Shown: positions 31,091 to 47,747 of the stretch, piece after piece
How the letters are laid out: the number at the start of each line of letters is the position of its first letter
How positions within the stretch are numbered: the first letter of the stretch is position 1
Assembly (NCBI GenBank): GCA_003242085.1
Contig: QBML01000013.1
Span: 1-64,000, forward strand
Source of the DNA: Pseudanabaena frigida
Lineage (GTDB): Bacteria > Cyanobacteriota > Cyanobacteriia > Pseudanabaenales > Pseudanabaenaceae
Reading direction: 5' to 3'
Length of the DNA stretch: 64,000 bases
Translations under genes and position numbers: made by a program
Notes under the pieces: generated by a model
Database searches by the model: none
Told to the model about the DNA's origin: nothing
What the model saw: the letters and a program-made list of their open reading frames with translations, nothing else

Positions 31091-31716
31091 AGCTCATTCT
31101 CCATCGCTAAGGCATTCAAGGCGGCGGCGCACATCGCGCTTCCCCCACGCCGACCGTGAATGGTCAAAAAGGGGACACCACGACTATTTTCCGCTAATGC
31201 TGCTTTTGACTCGATCGCACCGACAAAACCAACAGGAAATCCTAGTATAACGGCTGGTTTGAGCAAACCTTGATCAAGTAATTCTAAAAGCCGAAATAGC
31301 GCCGTGGGCGCGTTACCGATCGCTACAATCGATCCCGCAATATGCGATCGCCAAAGTTCCATTGCCGCCGCCGATCGCGTATTGCCGATTTGTTTAGCTA
31401 GGTCGGGAACTTCAGGTTCATTGAGGGTGCAAATTACAGCATTATTCGCTGGTAAGCGCTTACGAGTGACACCATTCGCAACCATCTGCGCGTCACAGAG
31501 AATATTCGCGCCATTTCTTAATGCTTCTCTACCGATTTTAACTACATCTTCAGAATAGGCGAGATCGTTAACAATATCGGTCATCCCACAGGAATGAATG
31601 AGGCGCACCGCAACCACTTCTAAATCCTGTGGCAAGATCGCTAAGTTTGCCTCAGCGCGAATCGTAGCAAAGGATTTGCGATAGATTTCATTGCCATCAC
31701 GAATGTAATCAAGCAT
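31087..31716 (-). CDS. cobH: Precorrin-8X methylmutase
   Basis: A 209-residue CobH/CbiC protein that moves the C11 methyl to C12 to give hydrogenobyrinate/cobyrinate. The catalytic histidine lies in VRLIHSCGMTDI, and AILGFPVGFVGAIESK and the Arg-Gly-rich tail HGRRGGSAMCAAALNAL are conserved. The start ATG at 31716 overlaps the end of cobG by 8 nt. Confidence 0.96.
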   Translation of the reverse strand: MLDYIRDGNEIYRKSFATIRAEANLAILPQDLEVVAVRLIHSCGMTDIVNDLAYSEDVVKIGREALRNGANILCDAQMVANGVTRKRLPANNAVICTLNEPEVPDLAKQIGNTRSAAAMELWRSHIAGSIVAIGNAPTALFRLLELLDQGLLKPAVILGFPVGFVGAIESKAALAENSRGVPFLTIHGRRGGSAMCAAALNALAMENEL

Positions 31717-33286
31717 GGTCGATCGCTTCCCTTAATTCTTGCAAATTGCATTGATTCACAAATTCACGAAAACTCTGTTCGGGATTTTGGCGTTGGTTTT
31801 GATAGATATTTAGCAAGCGTTCCATTAATTGAGGTAACTCATGTGCAGTATATTCCGCATAAAGTTCTCTTCCAAAATCAACTTCACCATCACCAACATA
31901 AATTTTGTAAGTTTCTGATGCTTGTCCCACTATCGCAATATCGCTTGCATGGTGCTGAGCGCAGGATTTATCACAACCTGAAAAATGCAAATTAATCGGA
32001 TAATCTAGTTGAATGCATTTTTCTAAGTATGAGGCGATCGCTTTTGCATCGGCTTGCGTATCTGTCAATGCTGACTTACATCCTTTATAACCAGAACAAG
32101 CAGCGATCGCCGCATAGGGATGATGAGCCGAAATATGCAATCCTAAATTTAAGATTTCCTGCGTTACCTGCTCAAGATCCGCCTCCGCAATATCCGTAAT
32201 CAGCAAATTTTGCCAAGGGGTTAACCGCAAAGCCCCACCACCATATTGTTTAGCAAGACTTGCTAATCCTGCGAGTTGCTGCGAAGTTAATCTTCCCAAT
32301 GGAACAACCACACCAATATAGAAAAGCCCTGATTGTTTTTGAGGATGAATACCTATGTGTTGAAAAGACGCTCTCTCTAAGCGGGAACTTATTGCTTCGT
32401 TTAGAGATGTGATCCCCCTGCCTTCGGCATCCCCCTTAAAAAGGGAGACTTTGTTTTTATTGTTATTGTTTAAATCATCCAAAGCCCCCCTTTCTAAGGG
32501 GGGTAGGGGGGATCTTAGTTTCTCTTTAACTAAGGCAAGATACTTTTCAACACCCCAATCATGTAGTAATTCTCTTAATCTCGGAGGACGCGATCGCGAA
32601 TGGGTTTTCTGCTCTAGCTTTTGCTGCGTATATTGTCGATAAACTTCTGTTAGCGCTGCAAGAACTTCTAAGACTTGGGTTTGAGGAATTAACACCCCAA
32701 CTGGTACTGGCGAATCGCCGCGATCGCCTAATCCTAAATGCAAATCAAAATAAATCTCGCCATTAATTTCAGTAGCTACTAAACAAATATCATTGGGGCG
32801 ATCGGTAACTCTAATCGTTTCACCACCATCAAAGCAAATACTGAATTTATTAGAAAGAATCACTAATTCAGGATGCTGTAATAGATAGAAATTCCATGCC
32901 TTAACCAATGGAATTGTGTTGATTTTGGCGTGGGCATCAATCCCTGCGCTGGGACTAGCCATCATATTCCTCAAACCGTCCATACTTTCGGCACTAGAGG
33001 CTAAGCCATAATCCTGAAAATCTAGCAGCACTTCTTCAGGCAAAGCTCGATCGGTGCGGATTTGCAGATTCGCCCGATTGGTAATTTGGATTTCGCCATT
33101 ACCAAATTGATTAACGACCTGTAGAAGAACTTCGCATTGTGTGGAGGTAATTAATCCCGCAGGTAAACGGATACGAGAAAGAATGCCGTCTTGGGCTGTG
33201 GCGGCATTAAAGAGACTGGGACAAATAGCTGTAGTAGATTGCAATTGAGAAAATTCCAAAAAATTGATCGCATTGTAAAGGCGCAA
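31709..33286 (-). CDS. cobG: Precorrin-3B synthase, sulfite-reductase-like (with in-frame repeat insert)
   Basis: A protein of up to 525 residues, related to sulfite/nitrite reductases, that hydroxylates precorrin-3A with oxygen to precorrin-3B. The [4Fe-4S]/sirohaem cysteines are intact: CSGYKGC and, later, GCDKSCAQHH. Residues about 257-293 (LPPLERGALDDLNNNNKNK and following) are encoded by a C/G-rich repeat insert. The start is uncertain: the ORF opens at a TTG inside the hairpin at 33271-33301, there is no in-frame ATG before the conserved CPSLFNAATAQDGILS, and TTG codons at 33259 or 33244 are alternatives. Confidence 0.88.
   Translation of the reverse strand: MRLYNAINFLEFSQLQSTTAICPSLFNAATAQDGILSRIRLPAGLITSTQCEVLLQVVNQFGNGEIQITNRANLQIRTDRALPEEVLLDFQDYGLASSAESMDGLRNMMASPSAGIDAHAKINTIPLVKAWNFYLLQHPELVILSNKFSICFDGGETIRVTDRPNDICLVATEINGEIYFDLHLGLGDRGDSPVPVGVLIPQTQVLEVLAALTEVYRQYTQQKLEQKTHSRSRPPRLRELLHDWGVEKYLALVKEKLRSPLPPLERGALDDLNNNNKNKVSLFKGDAEGRGITSLNEAISSRLERASFQHIGIHPQKQSGLFYIGVVVPLGRLTSQQLAGLASLAKQYGGGALRLTPWQNLLITDIAEADLEQVTQEILNLGLHISAHHPYAAIAACSGYKGCKSALTDTQADAKAIASYLEKCIQLDYPINLHFSGCDKSCAQHHASDIAIVGQASETYKIYVGDGEVDFGRELYAEYTAHELPQLMERLLNIYQNQRQNPEQSFREFVNQCNLQELREAIDHA
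32405..32515. repeat. C/G-rich repeat inserted in-frame in cobG
   Basis: The plus strand reads GATCCCCCTGCCTTCGGCAT, CCCCCTTAAAAAGGGAG, a spacer and CCCCCCTTTCTAAGGGGGG, TAGGGGGGATC. This is the same type of element as in cobN. It keeps the cobG frame open and encodes RSPLPPLERG and NKVSLFKGDAEG-like peptides. Confidence 0.8.
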
Positions 33287-41029: not shown

Positions 41030-41284
41030 ATGACAACAATTACTAAAGAATCTCTCAAGCAAGAGTTAGACCACTTCAATGATGAACAACTAAAACAAGT
41101 TGCAGATTTTATTGCATTTATCAAATTTCAGACCAAATTTACGCACCAGAAAACGGATGTTAACCAGTTTGCTAACCTCTACCAAGAATTTGCTCAAGAA
41201 GATCGAGAATTAGCTGAAGCAGGGATTTCTGAATATGCGGAACTCTTGAATAGTGAGGACAAAAATGAAAGTGGAACGTGGTGA
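41030..41284 (+). CDS. Probable antitoxin of a MazF-type module
   Basis: An 84-residue, acidic, mostly helical protein (SLKQELDHFNDEQLKQVADF, then AEAGISEYAELLNSEDKNES). It has no AbrB fold and differs from the other two antitoxins. Its end overlaps the MazF/PemK gene by 20 nt, so the antitoxin role is inferred from position and size; it resembles DUF2281-like antitoxins. GGAG lies 8 nt upstream of the ATG. Confidence 0.75.
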   Translation: MTTITKESLKQELDHFNDEQLKQVADFIAFIKFQTKFTHQKTDVNQFANLYQEFAQEDRELAEAGISEYAELLNSEDKNESGTW

Positions 41285-41615
41285 AATATGGTTAGCCAAT
41301 CTCGACCCCACCAAAGGCTCAGAACAAGCTGGCACTCGTCCGATTATCATCTTTCAAGAAAATACAATCTCTAAATTCACCAGCACGATTATCACAATTC
41401 CCCTCACAACTAATTTGCGGCGTGCAGCTTTACCAAGCTGTTTACTGATTTCTAGTGGTCAAGGCGGGTTAAACCAAGACTCAGTTGCACTTTGTCATCA
41501 ACTTCGCGTACTTGACAAAACTCGCTTGATTAAAAGATTAGGGCAGCTAGACATAAACGTAATTGCCGAGTTAGAAAGAACTGTCCTATTTACTCTTGGA
41601 TATCAAACGCCATGA
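41265..41615 (+). CDS. MazF/PemK-family toxin
   Basis: A 116-residue mRNA interferase with VERGEIWLANLDPTKGSEQA, GTRPIIIFQ and TIPLTTNLRRAALPSC. ATG at 41265 is chosen over the GTG at 41253 because it aligns with the family start. It overlaps its antitoxin. C-terminal LDINVIAELERTVLFTLGY is typical of the DNA-Arg/GTR subgroup. Confidence 0.93.
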   Translation: MKVERGEIWLANLDPTKGSEQAGTRPIIIFQENTISKFTSTIITIPLTTNLRRAALPSCLLISSGQGGLNQDSVALCHQLRVLDKTRLIKRLGQLDINVIAELERTVLFTLGYQTP

Positions 41616-41735
41616 TATTCCATGGTATCTATGTGAAGGAGATAGACCATACATTGCAAAAATCTTTAGACATTGATTAGGATAATTAATTTTATGATCG
41701 CGATCGCACCTTTAGCATTATTCGCGATCGCAAAA

Positions 41736-42074
41736 TTACTGAGAGCTAAATAGAGTAACAATTTTAGCCAACACATCATCAACGATCTCATCTGGCACAC
41801 TCTCCAACTTTCGAGCCTTACGAGCAGATAAATCAATAGGACGAGGTTGATCGCAACGAACTACACCTTTAGTGAGGGTTCCAGCAGAAGCTAGAGAAAC
41901 AGCAAAACCTGCGGTTCTCGCAAAATTCCCACCCGATGTAATTGGGACAACTATAGGAACTTTGGTTAAAGCATTGAATTTATCGGGAGAGACAATCAAA
42001 ACTGGTCTAGTACCCTGTTGTTCATGCCCTTCAGTTGGATCAAGCGAAACAAGATAAATATCACCACGTTTCAC
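41736..42074 (-). CDS. MazF-family toxin
   Basis: A 112-residue MazF homologue (KRGDIYLVSLDPTEGHEQQG, TRPVLIVSP, VPITSGGNFARTAGFAVSL, GVVRCDQPRPIDL). It overlaps its upstream MazE-type antitoxin by 4 nt and is third of the island's toxin modules, on the opposite strand to the other two and immediately downstream of cobN. Confidence 0.94.
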   Translation of the reverse strand: MKRGDIYLVSLDPTEGHEQQGTRPVLIVSPDKFNALTKVPIVVPITSGGNFARTAGFAVSLASAGTLTKGVVRCDQPRPIDLSARKARKLESVPDEIVDDVLAKIVTLFSSQ

Positions 42075-42325
42075 AGTTCATTCCCCACAGGTTTCACATC
42101 TAGCCAAACACAATCATCTTCCGTTATCGGAGAATTCGGATTGCACTGCGCCAAAAGCTCATCCAGTGAATATTGTGGTTTCGGTTGAGGTTCAATAATC
42201 AATCTGCCATTGTCAACAGTAACCCCCACAGTTGTACCTGATTGTAGGTTCAAAATTTCGAGAACGGCTGGGGGAATCGCTAACATGATCGAGCCACCGA
42301 CCTTACGAAGATTTGTGGTGTGCAT
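42071..42325 (-). CDS. MazE-type antitoxin (AbrB fold)
   Basis: An 84-residue protein with the AbrB/SpoVT N-terminus TTNLRKVGGSIMLAIPPAVL and a C-terminal KPQYSLDELLAQ plus acidic tail. I use the ATG at 42325; the longer ORF adds a hydrophobic 20-residue leader that does not fit the family. Only 56 nt separate it from the cobN stop, so read-through from cobN is possible. Confidence 0.92.
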   Translation of the reverse strand: MHTTNLRKVGGSIMLAIPPAVLEILNLQSGTTVGVTVDNGRLIIEPQPKPQYSLDELLAQCNPNSPITEDDCVWLDVKPVGNEL

Positions 42326-42381
42326 AATTTTTCTTGTAGTTATACTTAAATATAACATTAGTAAAAAACTTAGCTTTATCA

Positions 42382-45300
42382 TCAACTTGTTTGCGATTCG
42401 ATCGCACCTTCGGCATCATTAGCGATCGCCTTTAGGCGATCCAACATATCCGCAGTCACATCTTGCCACATCCCACGCTGATTCGCTTCTAGCAAGCGTT
42501 CCGACATATCACGCAACGCCCAAGGATTGCTAGACTTAATAAAATTCTGGACTTCAGGATTAAAGATATATGCCTCCGCAACGCCCTCATACATGAAGTC
42601 CGAAACGCAGTTAGTCGTAGCATCATAGGCAAATAGATAATCAAGCGTTGCCGACATCTCAAAAGCCCCTTTATAACCGTGACGCATCGCTCCCGATATC
42701 CATTTGGGATTGACGACACGCGATCGATAGACTCGCGCAATCTCTTCACTCAATTTACGAACCTTGGGCTGAGCCATCCGTGAATTATCCCCAAAATATA
42801 CCTCTGGAGCATTGCCAGATACGGAAGCGATCGCTGCCGTCATCCCGCCCTGAAACTGATAATAATCATCGGAATCGAGAATGTCATGCTCGCGATTATC
42901 CTGATTTTGTAGTACGATTTGCATATTCCCGAGGCGTTGGTTAAATGCTTCAGGCGCAGATTTACCCTCAGACTTGCTGGTGTAGGCGTAGGCGCTCCAA
43001 TTGATATAGGCACGGGCTAGATCCTGCTCACTCTCCCAGTTTTGCGACTCGATTAAACCTTGCAAACCTGCACCATAGGCGCTTGGCTTTGAGCCAAATA
43101 CCCGATAACGCGATCGCTCTTGCGCCTGTTTTAAAGTTAATCCTGATTCTTGCCAATGTGCTGATTCTTCTTGGACTTTTGCCGCTAAGGGATTCTGATC
43201 GGCAGGTTCATCAAGATTTGCCACAGCATTCACCGCACTATCAAATAAATCGATCAAGTTTGGAAATGCATCTCTAAAGAATCCCGAAATCCGCAAGGTC
43301 ACATCGACACGGGGACGACCTAAGATTGATAAAGGCAAAATCTCAAAATCAATCACGCGCCGAGATACGCCATCCCAAACAGGTTGCACGCCAAGCAGAG
43401 CAAGAGCTTCGGCTAAGTCATCGCCACCAGTTCGCATTGTCGAAGTTCCCCAAATCGATAGCCCCAAAGTTTGCGGATATTCACCATGTTCTTGAGTGTA
43501 AGTTTCAATCAACACGTCCGCAGCCTTGCGCCCAATATCCCAAGCCGTTTCCGTCGGCACAGCGCGAATATCCACAGAATAGAAATTGCGTCCAGTGGGC
43601 AGTACTTCGGGTCTGCCCCTAGTTGGCGCACCTGATGCACCACTAGGCACATATTCCCCATTGAGTCCACGCAGGAGATTAGTAATTTCTTGCTTGGTTT
43701 TGTAGAGAGATGGCAAAAGGCGATCGCAAATCCATATTAGTTCAGTCGCAATCTCGCCCCCCTTTGCAAGGGGGATAGGGGGGATCTCTTCAATTTTTAA
43801 ATCTCTAAAAGATCCCCCTAAATCCCCCTTATAAAGGGGGACTTCAGACTGGTTACTAGCATAAATCTCTTTGATTGGAATCTCGCCCCCCTTTGCAAGG
43901 GGGGTAGGAGGGATCTCTTCAAGAATCTGTGCCACCAACTCCGCCGCATATTCCTCTATAACTTCAACCGCATCCCCAATAATCCGACAATTCGCTAAGC
44001 GTGGATGCGAATTTAATGGAAGTAATTCACCTAAATCCGCAGTCAATGGATCGAAATCTAGCTGCCAATCCTGCGCGATCGCTCTAGTTAACCCCATCCG
44101 ATTAGCCGTAGGATTACGGGCGATCGCTACCACCAAATCCCTTAACTGCCGACCCTCTGGACATTGCCCGAAAATATGTAAACCATCACGAATTTGCGCT
44201 TCCTTAATTTCGCAGAGATAACCATCGGCTGTTGTGAGAATTGTATTCAGCGAATCCTCTAAACGATCTAGGGAAATCCCTAAGTCTTGATGGAGATTTT
44301 CCTGTTTGATTAACTCGATCAGGCGATCGCGAATCATCCCTAAACGTGACGGATCGAGAGTTTCCGCTTCGTAATATTCATCGATCAAGCCTTCCAACTG
44401 CTGCAAACCACCATACAACTCGGCGCGAGTCATCGGCGGCGTAAGGTGATCGATGATTACAGCTTGCGATCGCCTTTTTGCCTGTGAACCTTCCCCAGGG
44501 TCATTCACAATAAAGGGATAGAAATGGGGCATCGCGCCAAAGGCGGCTTCAGGATAGCAATTTTCCGACAGAGCCACACTTTTTCCAGGGAGCCATTCGA
44601 GGTTGCCATGCTTGCCGATATGGGCGATCGCATGGGCGGTAAACTTGTGGCGCACCCAATGATAGAAAGCCATATAGTCATGGGTCGGTTCTAAATCTGG
44701 CGCATGATAGTTGAGCGTAGGATCGAGGTCATAACCCCGTGATGGTTGAATCCCGACAAAAATATTGCCAAATTGCATACCAGCGATCGCAAATTCTGTT
44801 TCACATTTTGGCTGATTCCATCTTGTCTGAATTCCATTTTGGACGGGTTCGGGCAAATTCTGGAAATAGCTTTGATAATCTTCTAAGGATAACGATTGAT
44901 ATACCTGACGCACCCCAAAGGATTCGAGATCGTTGGTTACACCTGTCGTTAATAACTTCATCAGTCCGTCACTAGTTTCAGGGATTTCTCCAACGCTATA
45001 GCCCGAACTTCGCAAAGCTTTGAGAATCTCCAAACAACTCGCTGGCGTATCTAAACCGACACCATTAGCTAATCTGCCATCACGATTGGGATAGTTAGCC
45101 AGAATCAATGCAATCTTGCGATCGCCCACATCGGTATGCTTTAGTTGCACCCATTTCACCGCCAGATTCGCCACAAAATTAATCCGCGATCGCACGGGTT
45201 CATAGGTCAATACTTCCGTTTGCAAGGCGAGATTCTGCCCCTGCATGGCTTTAAAAGAAACTGCCCTCGTAATAATCCTGCCATCGACTTCAGGCAAGAC

Positions 45301-46332
45301 CACATTCATCGCCATATCGCGAGGATTTAGCCCCTGTGTACCATTTGCCCAAGTTTTCTTCAGTCCACCACTAAAAATCACCTGAAACACAGGCACATTT
45401 AAAGCTTCCCAAAGATCAACTTGAGGTGTATCCGTTTTTAAACTTGCCAAAGAGAAGCTAGTCGTATTTAAAATTACATCTACTTTCTGCTCAGATTCAG
45501 GCAAGCAATAGCGAATTAATTCTGCCTGCACGTCAGGTTCCTTTAAGGATGAAACATAAATGGGGACAGGCGTAAGATTACGCTCAGCTAAAGCTTTACA
45601 CAAAGCTGCGATCGCCCCTGTATTACCCGACAAATAATGAGCGCGATAAAAAAGAATCGCCACTCGCCCCAGCCCCCCCTCAATCTCCCTTAAAAAGGAG
45701 GAAGCATTTTCTTCTCCCCCCTTTCTCAAGGGGGGCTGGGGGGGATCAACCTCTAAAACGGAGACAGAAGATTGAGGCGAGATCGCTTCATAGATCCCAA
45801 TCCGAGGCACTGATTGCGGAAGTTCGTATTCCGATTCAATATCTAAAAATTCTTTCGCAATAAACTTCAATAAATTCTGATAATTACTAGCCCCTGCTTC
45901 GATGAAATATTGCCAAGCCTGATTCACCAAAGTTAGCGTCGTTGTAGAATGGCTAGTTAAGCTCGGATCAGGACGCTCATCTCCTGGCAATACGATCAAT
46001 ACTGCGCCAGTATTTGCCACAGTTTCCTTAACGACTTCTAATCCATAGCTCCAGTAAGACTGTCCCCCAATTAATCTGACAATAATTACCTTGGCACTTC
46101 CTAATACCTCTTCGGCATAGGTATCGATCGCTATCTGTTGCAGTAATTGCAATATATTCACTACCCGAATCTGCGGAAAATCCTCAGGTAATTTAGCAGT
46201 AGCGGCGGCTAGGGTTTGGATATCAGTATCGGCAGCAGTAATGATCACGATGGGCGCAGGTTGCTGCTCAACAAAAATTACGCTGTCGGTGGACTGGTTC
46301 CAGCCCCCTGATATAGTAGCAATACGGTGCAT
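42382..46332 (-). CDS. cobN: Cobaltochelatase subunit CobN (with in-frame repeat inserts)
   Basis: A 1316-residue CobN/magnesium-chelatase H-family protein that inserts Co(II) into hydrogenobyrinate diamide in the aerobic pathway, with AAA+ partners that are not in this window. Conserved blocks include HIGKHGNLEWLPGKSVALS, IVNDPGEGSQAKRRSQAVII, WGTSTMRTGGDDLAEALALL, GRPRVDVTLRISGFFRDAFPN-type segment and VVNPKWISGAMRHGYKGA. Two regions, residues about 190-222 and about 803-864, are encoded by C/G-rich repeat elements (PPQPPLRKGGEE; EIPPTPLAKGGEI, EVPLYKGDLGGSF, EIPPIPLAKGGEI). They lie between conserved blocks and keep the frame. cobN is divergent from cobB. Confidence 0.96.
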   Translation of the reverse strand: MHRIATISGGWNQSTDSVIFVEQQPAPIVIITAADTDIQTLAAATAKLPEDFPQIRVVNILQLLQQIAIDTYAEEVLGSAKVIIVRLIGGQSYWSYGLEVVKETVANTGAVLIVLPGDERPDPSLTSHSTTTLTLVNQAWQYFIEAGASNYQNLLKFIAKEFLDIESEYELPQSVPRIGIYEAISPQSSVSVLEVDPPQPPLRKGGEENASSFLREIEGGLGRVAILFYRAHYLSGNTGAIAALCKALAERNLTPVPIYVSSLKEPDVQAELIRYCLPESEQKVDVILNTTSFSLASLKTDTPQVDLWEALNVPVFQVIFSGGLKKTWANGTQGLNPRDMAMNVVLPEVDGRIITRAVSFKAMQGQNLALQTEVLTYEPVRSRINFVANLAVKWVQLKHTDVGDRKIALILANYPNRDGRLANGVGLDTPASCLEILKALRSSGYSVGEIPETSDGLMKLLTTGVTNDLESFGVRQVYQSLSLEDYQSYFQNLPEPVQNGIQTRWNQPKCETEFAIAGMQFGNIFVGIQPSRGYDLDPTLNYHAPDLEPTHDYMAFYHWVRHKFTAHAIAHIGKHGNLEWLPGKSVALSENCYPEAAFGAMPHFYPFIVNDPGEGSQAKRRSQAVIIDHLTPPMTRAELYGGLQQLEGLIDEYYEAETLDPSRLGMIRDRLIELIKQENLHQDLGISLDRLEDSLNTILTTADGYLCEIKEAQIRDGLHIFGQCPEGRQLRDLVVAIARNPTANRMGLTRAIAQDWQLDFDPLTADLGELLPLNSHPRLANCRIIGDAVEVIEEYAAELVAQILEEIPPTPLAKGGEIPIKEIYASNQSEVPLYKGDLGGSFRDLKIEEIPPIPLAKGGEIATELIWICDRLLPSLYKTKQEITNLLRGLNGEYVPSGASGAPTRGRPEVLPTGRNFYSVDIRAVPTETAWDIGRKAADVLIETYTQEHGEYPQTLGLSIWGTSTMRTGGDDLAEALALLGVQPVWDGVSRRVIDFEILPLSILGRPRVDVTLRISGFFRDAFPNLIDLFDSAVNAVANLDEPADQNPLAAKVQEESAHWQESGLTLKQAQERSRYRVFGSKPSAYGAGLQGLIESQNWESEQDLARAYINWSAYAYTSKSEGKSAPEAFNQRLGNMQIVLQNQDNREHDILDSDDYYQFQGGMTAAIASVSGNAPEVYFGDNSRMAQPKVRKLSEEIARVYRSRVVNPKWISGAMRHGYKGAFEMSATLDYLFAYDATTNCVSDFMYEGVAEAYIFNPEVQNFIKSSNPWALRDMSERLLEANQRGMWQDVTADMLDRLKAIANDAEGAIESQTS
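43740..43925. repeat. Triple C/G-rich repeat inside cobN
   Basis: Three units of the form CCCCCCTTTGCAAGGGGG-TAGGGGGGATCTCTTC or its relative AAGATCCCCCTAAATCCCCC TTATAAAGGGGGACTT. Two units are near identical direct copies (from about 43758 and about 43891), and the middle one is inverted. Coding is open throughout. Confidence 0.85.
45664..45753. repeat. C/G-rich repeat inside cobN, N-terminal region
   Basis: GCCCCCCCTCAATCTCCCTT AAAAAGGAGG, a short spacer, then CCCCCCTTTCTCAAGGGGGG CTGGGGGGGATC. It encodes DPPQPPLRKGGEEN and REIEGGLGRV, an extra loop in CobN. Confidence 0.8.
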
Positions 46333-46364: not shown

Positions 46365-47747
46365 ATGGCAATTATTATCGCAGGTGAACGTAGTGGTGTG
46401 GGGAAAACTACAGTGACTTTGGCGCTATTAGCAGCTCTGAAGGCGCGATCGCAATCCGATCAAGTGCAATCCTTTAAAGTTGGACCCGATTACATCGATC
46501 CGATGTTCCATGCCTATATCACAGGGCTACCCTGTCGCAATCTCGATCCCGTCTTAACCTCTGAAGACTATGTGCGATCGTGCTTTGCTAAACATTCCCA
46601 AAATGCTGCATATTCCCTGATTGAAGGAGTAATGGGGCTATTCGATGGTGCGACAGGAAAGGATGACACCGCAAGTACTGCCCATATCGCAAGATTACTA
46701 AATGTACCAGTAGTATTAATCCTCAATTGCGCCAGTACATCACGATCTGTTGCCGCGATCGCTCACGGATATCGCACCTTCGATCCGCGCATTCAGATTG
46801 CAGGCGTAGTTCTCAATCGCGTAGGTAGTGATCGCCATTTAGAACTATTAACTCAAGCCCTAGAACCTTTAAATCTACCAATTCTCGGCGTTCTCCGTCG
46901 TCAAGATAATATCGCCATTCCCGATCGCCATTTAGGACTCATCCCCATCGCCGAAATGTCCGATCTCGATGGGATTATCGAGCGATTGGCTCATCTAGGT
47001 GAAACTTGCTTTGATTGGGAGAAGTTATTACCATTGATGGGAGATCCTCACCCCAACCACTCTTCCGTAGAAGCGGAGGCTCGCTTCCTACTTCCCTCTC
47101 CCATAGGGAGAGCAGGTGAAGGCAAAATTCGTATTGCGATCGCCCAAGATCGCGCCTTCAGTTTTTATTATGCCGACAACCTTGATTTATTCAGAGAAAT
47201 GGGAGCCGAATTAGTTCCTTGGAGTCCAATTAGCGATCGCACCTTACCTGAACGTATCCAAGGCTTATACTTTGGTGGTGGCTTTCCAGAAGTATTTGCG
47301 GCAGAATTAGCGGAAAATAAAAATGCAAGAGAAGCAGTTCACAAGGCTATTACTTCAGGTATGCCCACCTATGCCGAATGTGGCGGCTTAATGTACCTGT
47401 GCGATCGCATTGTGGATTTTGAAGATAAATCTTTCCCGATGGTAAATATTTTTCCAACAGCCGCCAAAATGGGAAAGCGGCTCACCTTGGGCTATCGACA
47501 AGCGATCGCCTTGCAAGATAGTCCTTTGGTAAACAAAGGAGATCGGGTTTGGGGACATGAATTTCATCGCTCATCTTTAACAGAGTCATGCGATCGCCCC
47601 TTATATTCTCTGCAAGGCTATGAATCGCATTTGCAATATCCATCAGAAGGCTGGCAAAGGTATCAAGTTCATGCATCCTATACACATCTCCATTTCGGTG
47701 CACAAAGTCATCTCTTACAGAGATTTTTGTCAACTTGCCACCTCTAA
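46365..47747 (+). CDS. cobB: Cobyrinate a,c-diamide synthase (CobB/CbiA)
   Basis: A 460-residue two-domain glutamine amidotransferase that amidates the a and c side chains of (hydrogeno)cobyrinate. The ATP domain has AGERSGVGKTTVTLALLAAL, KVGPDYIDPMFH and EGVMGLFDG; the class-I-like glutaminase has FGGGFPEVFAAELAEN, the nucleophile Cys in TYAECGGLMYLCD and WGHEFHRS. Residues about 227-253 (NHSSVEAEARFLLPSPIGRA) are encoded by a repeat-like insert joining the two domains. It is divergent from cobN with a 32-nt gap, so promoters must overlap coding sequence. Confidence 0.95.
   Translation: MAIIIAGERSGVGKTTVTLALLAALKARSQSDQVQSFKVGPDYIDPMFHAYITGLPCRNLDPVLTSEDYVRSCFAKHSQNAAYSLIEGVMGLFDGATGKDDTASTAHIARLLNVPVVLILNCASTSRSVAAIAHGYRTFDPRIQIAGVVLNRVGSDRHLELLTQALEPLNLPILGVLRRQDNIAIPDRHLGLIPIAEMSDLDGIIERLAHLGETCFDWEKLLPLMGDPHPNHSSVEAEARFLLPSPIGRAGEGKIRIAIAQDRAFSFYYADNLDLFREMGAELVPWSPISDRTLPERIQGLYFGGGFPEVFAAELAENKNAREAVHKAITSGMPTYAECGGLMYLCDRIVDFEDKSFPMVNIFPTAAKMGKRLTLGYRQAIALQDSPLVNKGDRVWGHEFHRSSLTESCDRPLYSLQGYESHLQYPSEGWQRYQVHASYTHLHFGAQSHLLQRFLSTCHL
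47049..47120. repeat. Repeat-like insert in the cobB linker
   Basis: CCTCACCCCAACCACTCTTC ... CTTCCCTCTCCCATAGGGAGAGCAGG, containing the small palindrome CTCTCCCATAGGGAGAG. It encodes a linker absent from ordinary CobB proteins; it differs in sequence from the C/G repeats of cobN and cobG. Confidence 0.6.

Follow-up and report, generated by a model that had tools for sequence, protein, structure and literature searches.

The cobN gene of Pseudanabaena frigida, as found in the first 64,000 nucleotides of contig QBML01000013.1 (the whole stretch analysed, hereafter the window), harbors two inserts that fall in linkers of the encoded cobaltochelatase subunit and that consist of a short, G+C-rich palindromic repeat, referred to here as the GATCCCC element. 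These inserts are probably copies of a non-autonomous cyanobacterial palindrome, similar to REPINs (doublets of repetitive extragenic palindromic, REP, sequences), which is tolerated within linkers and then remodelled in place. The gene is a single open frame (Pfam CobN-Mg_chel, 1409.9 bits), and its closest named relatives share 87–92% identity and are mostly from Pseudanabaena, with a few otherwise named, for example Phormidium tenue FACHB-1050. The features concerned, in window coordinates, are the following.

42382–46332, minus strand: cobN, cobaltochelatase subunit, 1316 amino acids, bearing both insert regions.
43757–43786, minus strand (GATC-first on minus): C-linker half-unit, first in window order, peptide EIPPIPLAKGGEI.
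43811–43842, plus strand (inverted relative to the other two): C-linker half-unit, second in window order, peptide EVPLYKGDLGGSF.
43886–43915, minus strand: C-linker half-unit, third in window order, peptide EIPPTPLAKGGEI.
43750–43793, minus strand: copy of a 44-nt direct repeat in the C-linker, partner at 43879–43922, 95% identity, spacing 129 nt.
About 45673–45747, minus strand: N-linker full element, an inverted pair of half-units of which one is worn; peptide DPPQPPLRKGGEENASSFLREIEGGLG.
32411–32514, minus strand: a further full element, in frame in a sulfite-reductase-like gene (31712–33286; called CobG-like here).

A half-unit is composed of the tag GATCCCCC, about four variable bases (more in some copies) and a hairpin, CCCCC(C)TT-nnn-AA(G)GGGGG, of the CCCCCTTnnnAAGGGGG type (C5TT-nnn-AAG5). 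Two inverted half-units with GATC at both outer ends make up the full element of 74–106 bp, while some sites hold one half-unit alone. The 5.39-Mb genome of the strain contains 42 exact copies of the hairpin, compared with 0 for the control, the pattern read backward, and the linker inserts therefore exceed what chance would give. Across the phylum, the tagged half-unit pattern is present in 59 of 244 genomes, all of which, by manual count, are among the 117 rows of the same class (the strain itself and its genus included), with 0 of 127 outside the class. An intergenic copy matches nine plasmid records, all cyanobacterial, with a maximum of 14 places per record, and the same query gave no match among the phage records searched. 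The repeat occurs as a bare core, as a core within a miniature inverted-repeat transposable element (MITE) of about 139 bp, and as plasmid-borne copies. The 30 sites discussed below for the strain's own genome derive from the exact-hairpin and tagged patterns, which miss more diverged copies such as that at L022 3699–3779; three of them (L008, L218, L222), all intergenic, are partial or doubtful, and a weak match at C11:261430 was left out.

Within cobN, the C-linker (43757–43915) contains three G+C-rich hairpin half-units, two direct and one inverted, an arrangement that a preliminary description of this DNA had proposed and that is confirmed by the strands listed above. In gene order their predicted peptides are EIPPTPLAKGGEI, EVPLYKGDLGGSF and EIPPIPLAKGGEI, and the part from 43811 to 43915, taken as a whole, has the layout of one inverted pair. 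The N-linker insert reads as DPPQPPLRKGGEE. The same description counted four repeat units in the gene; the repeat inserts are real, but there are five half-units, because the N-linker insert comprises both hairpins of a full element, the second half being worn. Aligned with CobN chains of solved structure, both inserts coincide with gaps or breaks in the alignment, and the linkers of the solved chains are shorter in these two places. A structure model of residues 120–1316 was poor (mean predicted local distance difference test score, pLDDT, 51.4) and was not used. Rfam returned only microRNA hairpins for window positions 43600–46000, all under their gathering scores.

The inserts vary by strain, which disposes of the possibility, also considered in the preliminary description, that the segment is present in all CobN. 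The comparison of linker DNA covers 20 of 26 genomes of the genus ("genus" denoting the grouping of the genome search set): G006, G009 and G015 are without a full-length cobN on one contig, G275, G276 and G277 lie outside the linker set, and seven outgroup CobNs were aligned but left out of the counts. The N-linker holds a GATCCCC element in 14 genomes, a CCCTCTCC-type palindrome in two (G002, G003), an eroded stretch in one (G017) and no recognised repeat in three (G012, G019, G021). At the C-linker, seven genomes have GATCCCC half-units, three a full GATCCCC element and eight a CCCTCTCC-type palindrome, and two further G+C palindromes are found in one genome each (G011, G019). Alleles with one, three and five half-units are found, G022 having two plus an eroded third, and within the five-unit allele (G012) two 132-nt units are identical at 124 of 132 positions. 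Both linkers, rich in Pro, Gly and Lys and variable in length, are hot spots among these 20 proteins. Since both tolerate variable length, CobN function is presumably kept.

At the N-linker, the element stands in one orientation in 10 of the 14 alleles and is inverted at the same site in the remaining four. Relative to the G014 element, the elements of G018, G010, G007 and G020 match at 92–95% inverted and 75–78% direct, while the other nine match at 84–100% direct and 67–83% inverted, with the smallest direct-over-inverted margins (7–8 points) in G000, G008 and G016. Tags and hairpins are flipped as one, and the inverted unit is therefore the whole GATC-to-GATC element. Natural alleles remain open with the element in either orientation, as the preliminary description would have it.

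Beyond cobN, extragenic sites dominate (21 of 30 in the strain's own genome). Genic sites, in open frames of at least 200 amino acids, number 9 of 30, as opposed to 1552 of 2700 random positions (57%), and in other genomes of the phylum 8 of 29 element clusters are genic versus 682 of 1288 random positions, the latter from 30 loci, none from the strain's own genome, of which 28 were judged, L114 and L125 being too short. All nine in-gene sites of the strain read through. They lie in eight genes, namely cobN (two sites), the CobG-like gene, two STAND/WD40 genes and genes for an RluA-type pseudouridine synthase, a GH94 protein, a hydantoinase/oxoprolinase and an NFACT protein. The inserts of the CobG-like, GH94 and hydantoinase/oxoprolinase proteins are located between Pfam domains, that of the CobG-like protein between the NIR_SIR match, which ends at residue 258, and the NIR_SIR_ferr match, which starts at 314, and the RluA-type insert lies just ahead of its domain. 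Stops flagged within some CobG-like matches are at most about ten residues from the ends of the matched span (seven genomes checked). Nor, as far as examined, do the repeats almost always break frames elsewhere, as had been thought conceivable: a split Pfam domain was sought in 14 same-strand neighbour pairs flanking intergenic sites (same-strand pair L017, opposite-strand pairs and the doubtful sites L218 and L222 left out) and none was seen. Among these pairs, one neighbour has no Pfam match, and one pair shares Radical_SAM, the two matches covering parts of the model that overlap instead of complementing each other.

Turnover resembling that of cobN is evident in alignments of the CobG-like (25 of 26 genomes), NFACT (24), RluA-type (23) and GH94 (24) genes. 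The CobG-like, NFACT and GH94 linkers carry GATCCCC pieces in some strains and a CCCTCTCC-type repeat or no recognised repeat in others, and the RluA-type site holds the element, its fragments or nothing recognised. For GH94, the half-unit peptide alone is found in 12 genomes, a longer GATCCCC element in five, a CCCTCTCC-type repeat in six and both kinds in one.

Of the 21 intergenic sites, eight are inside the MITE (104–142 bp) with GAAACCATTTAAGAATT terminal inverted repeats, whose end pattern, allowing up to two mismatches, gives 36 matches versus 16 in the control. The MITE copies (e.g. L284 1501–1639, L288, L296) comprise eight with a recognised GATCCCC core and two with an eroded one, in addition to one end pair (L309) without a core. 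When the end sequence was sought at the nine in-gene sites no match was obtained, the core being bare there. By eye, a 22-nt flank, TCTGTCTnCGTTTynnGGTT, is seen near several elements (L003, L013, L022 and window 45748–45775), on either side relative to element orientation; it is possibly a target or a piece of a larger unit.

A course of events can be proposed on this basis. The palindrome would be mobilised by a factor acting in trans, and in-gene copies would persist if they add a net number of nucleotides divisible by three within a linker that tolerates them, surviving copies being read as a Pro/Gly/Lys-rich and presumably neutral peptide in whichever open frame was hit. Thereafter the linker would remain unstable, with the whole element being inverted, half-units growing and shrinking in number as a 129/132-nt tandem unit, pieces being lost and other palindrome families being substituted, the direction of these changes being presumptive.

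Several observations weigh against such a scheme. Y1 transposase genes exist in the genome (three) and more in the genus, yet 0 of 32 Y1 loci (out of 52 matches listed, 20 having no locus) have a GATCCCC repeat within about 1.5 kb, and no cognate REP-associated tyrosine transposase (RAYT) was found. Five of these same loci have a GGGGCGAGCACG-type repeat and four a GTAGGGTGCGTTA-type repeat; with this positive control, the survey is therefore able to detect repeat-transposase links. No target-site duplication is readable, and many element-free alleles hold something else, leaving no clean empty site. Exchange points for inversion would fall in the roughly 8-bp GATCCCCC ends, which are short for ordinary homologous recombination. 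The NFACT insert and one STAND insert are inside a Pfam model, and the second STAND insert was not placed; not every insert is therefore in a demonstrated interdomain linker. The CobN tree shows a patchy distribution of linker states, and strains swapping linker alleles can therefore produce the appearance of repeated local events. Lastly, the insert peptides are predicted translations. Separately from the GATCCCC repeat, candidate REP/RAYT pairs were observed, Y1/RAYT-type genes L029, L196, L203, L204 and L205 being near GGGGCGAGCACGGGGGC repeats and L030, L200, L208 and L209 near GTAGGGTGCGTTA repeats; a repeat resembling the GGGGCGAGCACGGGGGC type fills the CobN C-linker in G011.

With regard to the two N-linker orientations, in-place inversion is more likely than repeated, independent targeting of a preferred site by one active GAGA-loop element, an explanation considered rather improbable. 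The exact GAGA-loop pattern is present at 19 places in the 26 genomes, 13 in cobN, four elsewhere (G001 and G022) and two (G276, G277) not assigned. The elements elsewhere in G001 and G022 would suit independent insertion, as would the flank TCTGTCTnCGTTT..GGTT noticed by eye on either side of some intergenic copies, and the fact that only two inverted alleles (G010, G020) match the loop exactly while G007 and G018 have one mismatch. However, the sisters G008 and G018 (support 1.0) carry opposite element orientations behind a common upstream flank, and nine genomes have all their exact loop matches in cobN (four of them with a one-mismatch match elsewhere). Alternatively, the patchwork might be due mostly to horizontal transfer of pieces of cobN between Pseudanabaena strains, insertion and inversion being rare and old, which is unlikely although the half-unit, full-element and other-family states are indeed scattered on the CobN tree. 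Unit number, orientation and family differ between near sisters, similar turnover is found in the four further genes, three of which are on other contigs of the strain's genome, and exchange would still require the events that make the alleles; strain-to-strain exchange may nevertheless be a part of the patchwork. It is doubtful, and less probable than either of these, that enzyme linkers are dedicated exchange sites at which whole palindromic elements are cut out and put back through their GATCCCCC ends, facing either way, and exchanged for other palindrome families. If so, protein linkers would evolve through DNA-level cassette replacement.

A further alternative, that selection has shaped the repeat into a coding cassette which fits any frame or orientation and supplies useful linker peptides, is very improbable. 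In its favor, both orientations and several frames are used in real genes, the GH94 half-unit peptide stands alone in half of the aligned genomes (12 of 24), and in G010 and G019 the GH94 hairpin DNA is eroded partly via synonymous changes while PPTPLVK is retained. The ratio of nonsynonymous to synonymous polymorphism (pN/pS) of the GH94 insert, 0.43 over 12 genomes and 0.36 when two divergent genomes are left out, is under 1 but far over the 0.086 of the whole gene, and weak constraint on the insert peptide is, from few changes, suggestive only. The preliminary description held that the DNA stays open on either strand, which applies to some units only: 5, 2 and 5 of six frames are open in the C-linker half-units (window order), 5 of six in the intact half of the N-linker element and 3 of six in the worn half. 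Its further idea of a repeat shaped to be coding-compatible is rejected by the open-frame counts, since the means of 3.60 of six frames for 15 in-gene and 3.84 for 38 intergenic half-elements are below composition shuffles (4.38 and 4.37) and near random 30-mers of the window (3.66). These counts include mis-registered in-gene stretches (window 32473 and 45672), together with L026 8640 and 8857, which the pattern also caught. Half-elements thus have fewer open frames than their own composition gives and about as many as ordinary DNA, in-gene copies having no more than intergenic ones; the under-representation of elements in genes likewise goes against such a design. All three forward codon phases are represented among in-gene copies, the phase reading RSP..PL.KGG appearing in six of ten forward half-units; such a spread would be expected if insertion were blind to frame and open reading were then selected for. 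An ordinary low-complexity or slippage linker, finally, would share the Pro/Gly/Lys-rich composition and variable length, but is scarcely credible given the genome-wide hairpin count (42 against 0) and the tagged form in 59 of 244 genomes, the count contradicting it directly.

Among known systems, Rickettsia palindromic elements and intragenic REPs come nearest to this repeat. In-frame palindromes are already known from Rickettsia and some REP families. Rickettsia palindromic elements are described as short palindromes in frame within unrelated protein genes (PMC10969869, PMC3733652). The Pseudanabaena repeat is likewise in frame in unrelated genes, with all of its 9 sites in 8 genes open, but it differs in host phylum and motif, and only 9 of its 30 sites are genic. 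In Pseudanabaena, the element also occurs inverted at one and the same site, and linkers that carry it in some strains hold other families in others. Intragenic REPs, as dimers or groups encoding 20 to 30 amino acids, and GTAG-tagged REPs in Anabaena, Nostoc and Cyanothece are mentioned in PMC3733652, and REPINs are treated in PMC3116915. Like these, the GATCCCC repeat has a tag and a hairpin, inverted pairing, high copy number and mostly extragenic sites. Unlike them, its tag is GATC (GATCCCCC) and not GTAG or CGTC, and none of the 32 Y1 loci is flanked by it; the palindrome is not filed as a REPIN because no cognate RAYT was seen. A MITE-type repeat, the enterobacterial repetitive intergenic consensus (ERIC), is reported inside genes in PMC10969869 and PMC2759123. 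The present repeat is similar to MITEs in having terminal inverted repeats around a core, at the eight intergenic sites only, but differs in that the nine in-gene copies are bare. Nostoc, according to Elhai and colleagues, reportedly contains small nested dispersed repeats of cyanobacterial type. In the literature searched, from which subscription papers were mostly absent, there was no account of this GATCCCC palindrome, and the passages accessible there mentioned neither same-site inversion nor different palindrome families at one linker.

Other observations concern the repeat and the surroundings of cobN. At L016 1058–1379 (G000:C13:26659–26978) a 145-bp unit forms a tandem array, each unit containing a GATCCCC element, while four adjacent element-peptide matches lie within one open frame of 1464 amino acids (G022:C1:4811976–4812557) and three within one of 1353 (G012:C32:54712–54999). 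In the window, the CbiA/CobB-like gene at 46365–47747 has a linker between CbiA and GATase_3 (about 47040–47123) that reads GDPHPNHSSVEAEARFLLPSPIGRAGEG and contains an in-frame palindrome of the CCCTCTCCC type, its linker pattern matching in 5 of 29 sources tried; three window genes taken as B12-pathway genes therefore carry repeat-like linkers. Positions 41253–42385 hold two open reading frames on opposite strands that we take to be PemK/MazF-like, one with a presumably AbrB/MazE-like frame upstream.

The allele series at the two CobN linkers in 20 related genomes provides a natural system for the study of how mobile DNA turns into protein linker, and gives reason for caution, as stretches of this kind in cyanobacterial proteins can stem from repeat DNA rather than reflect conserved function.

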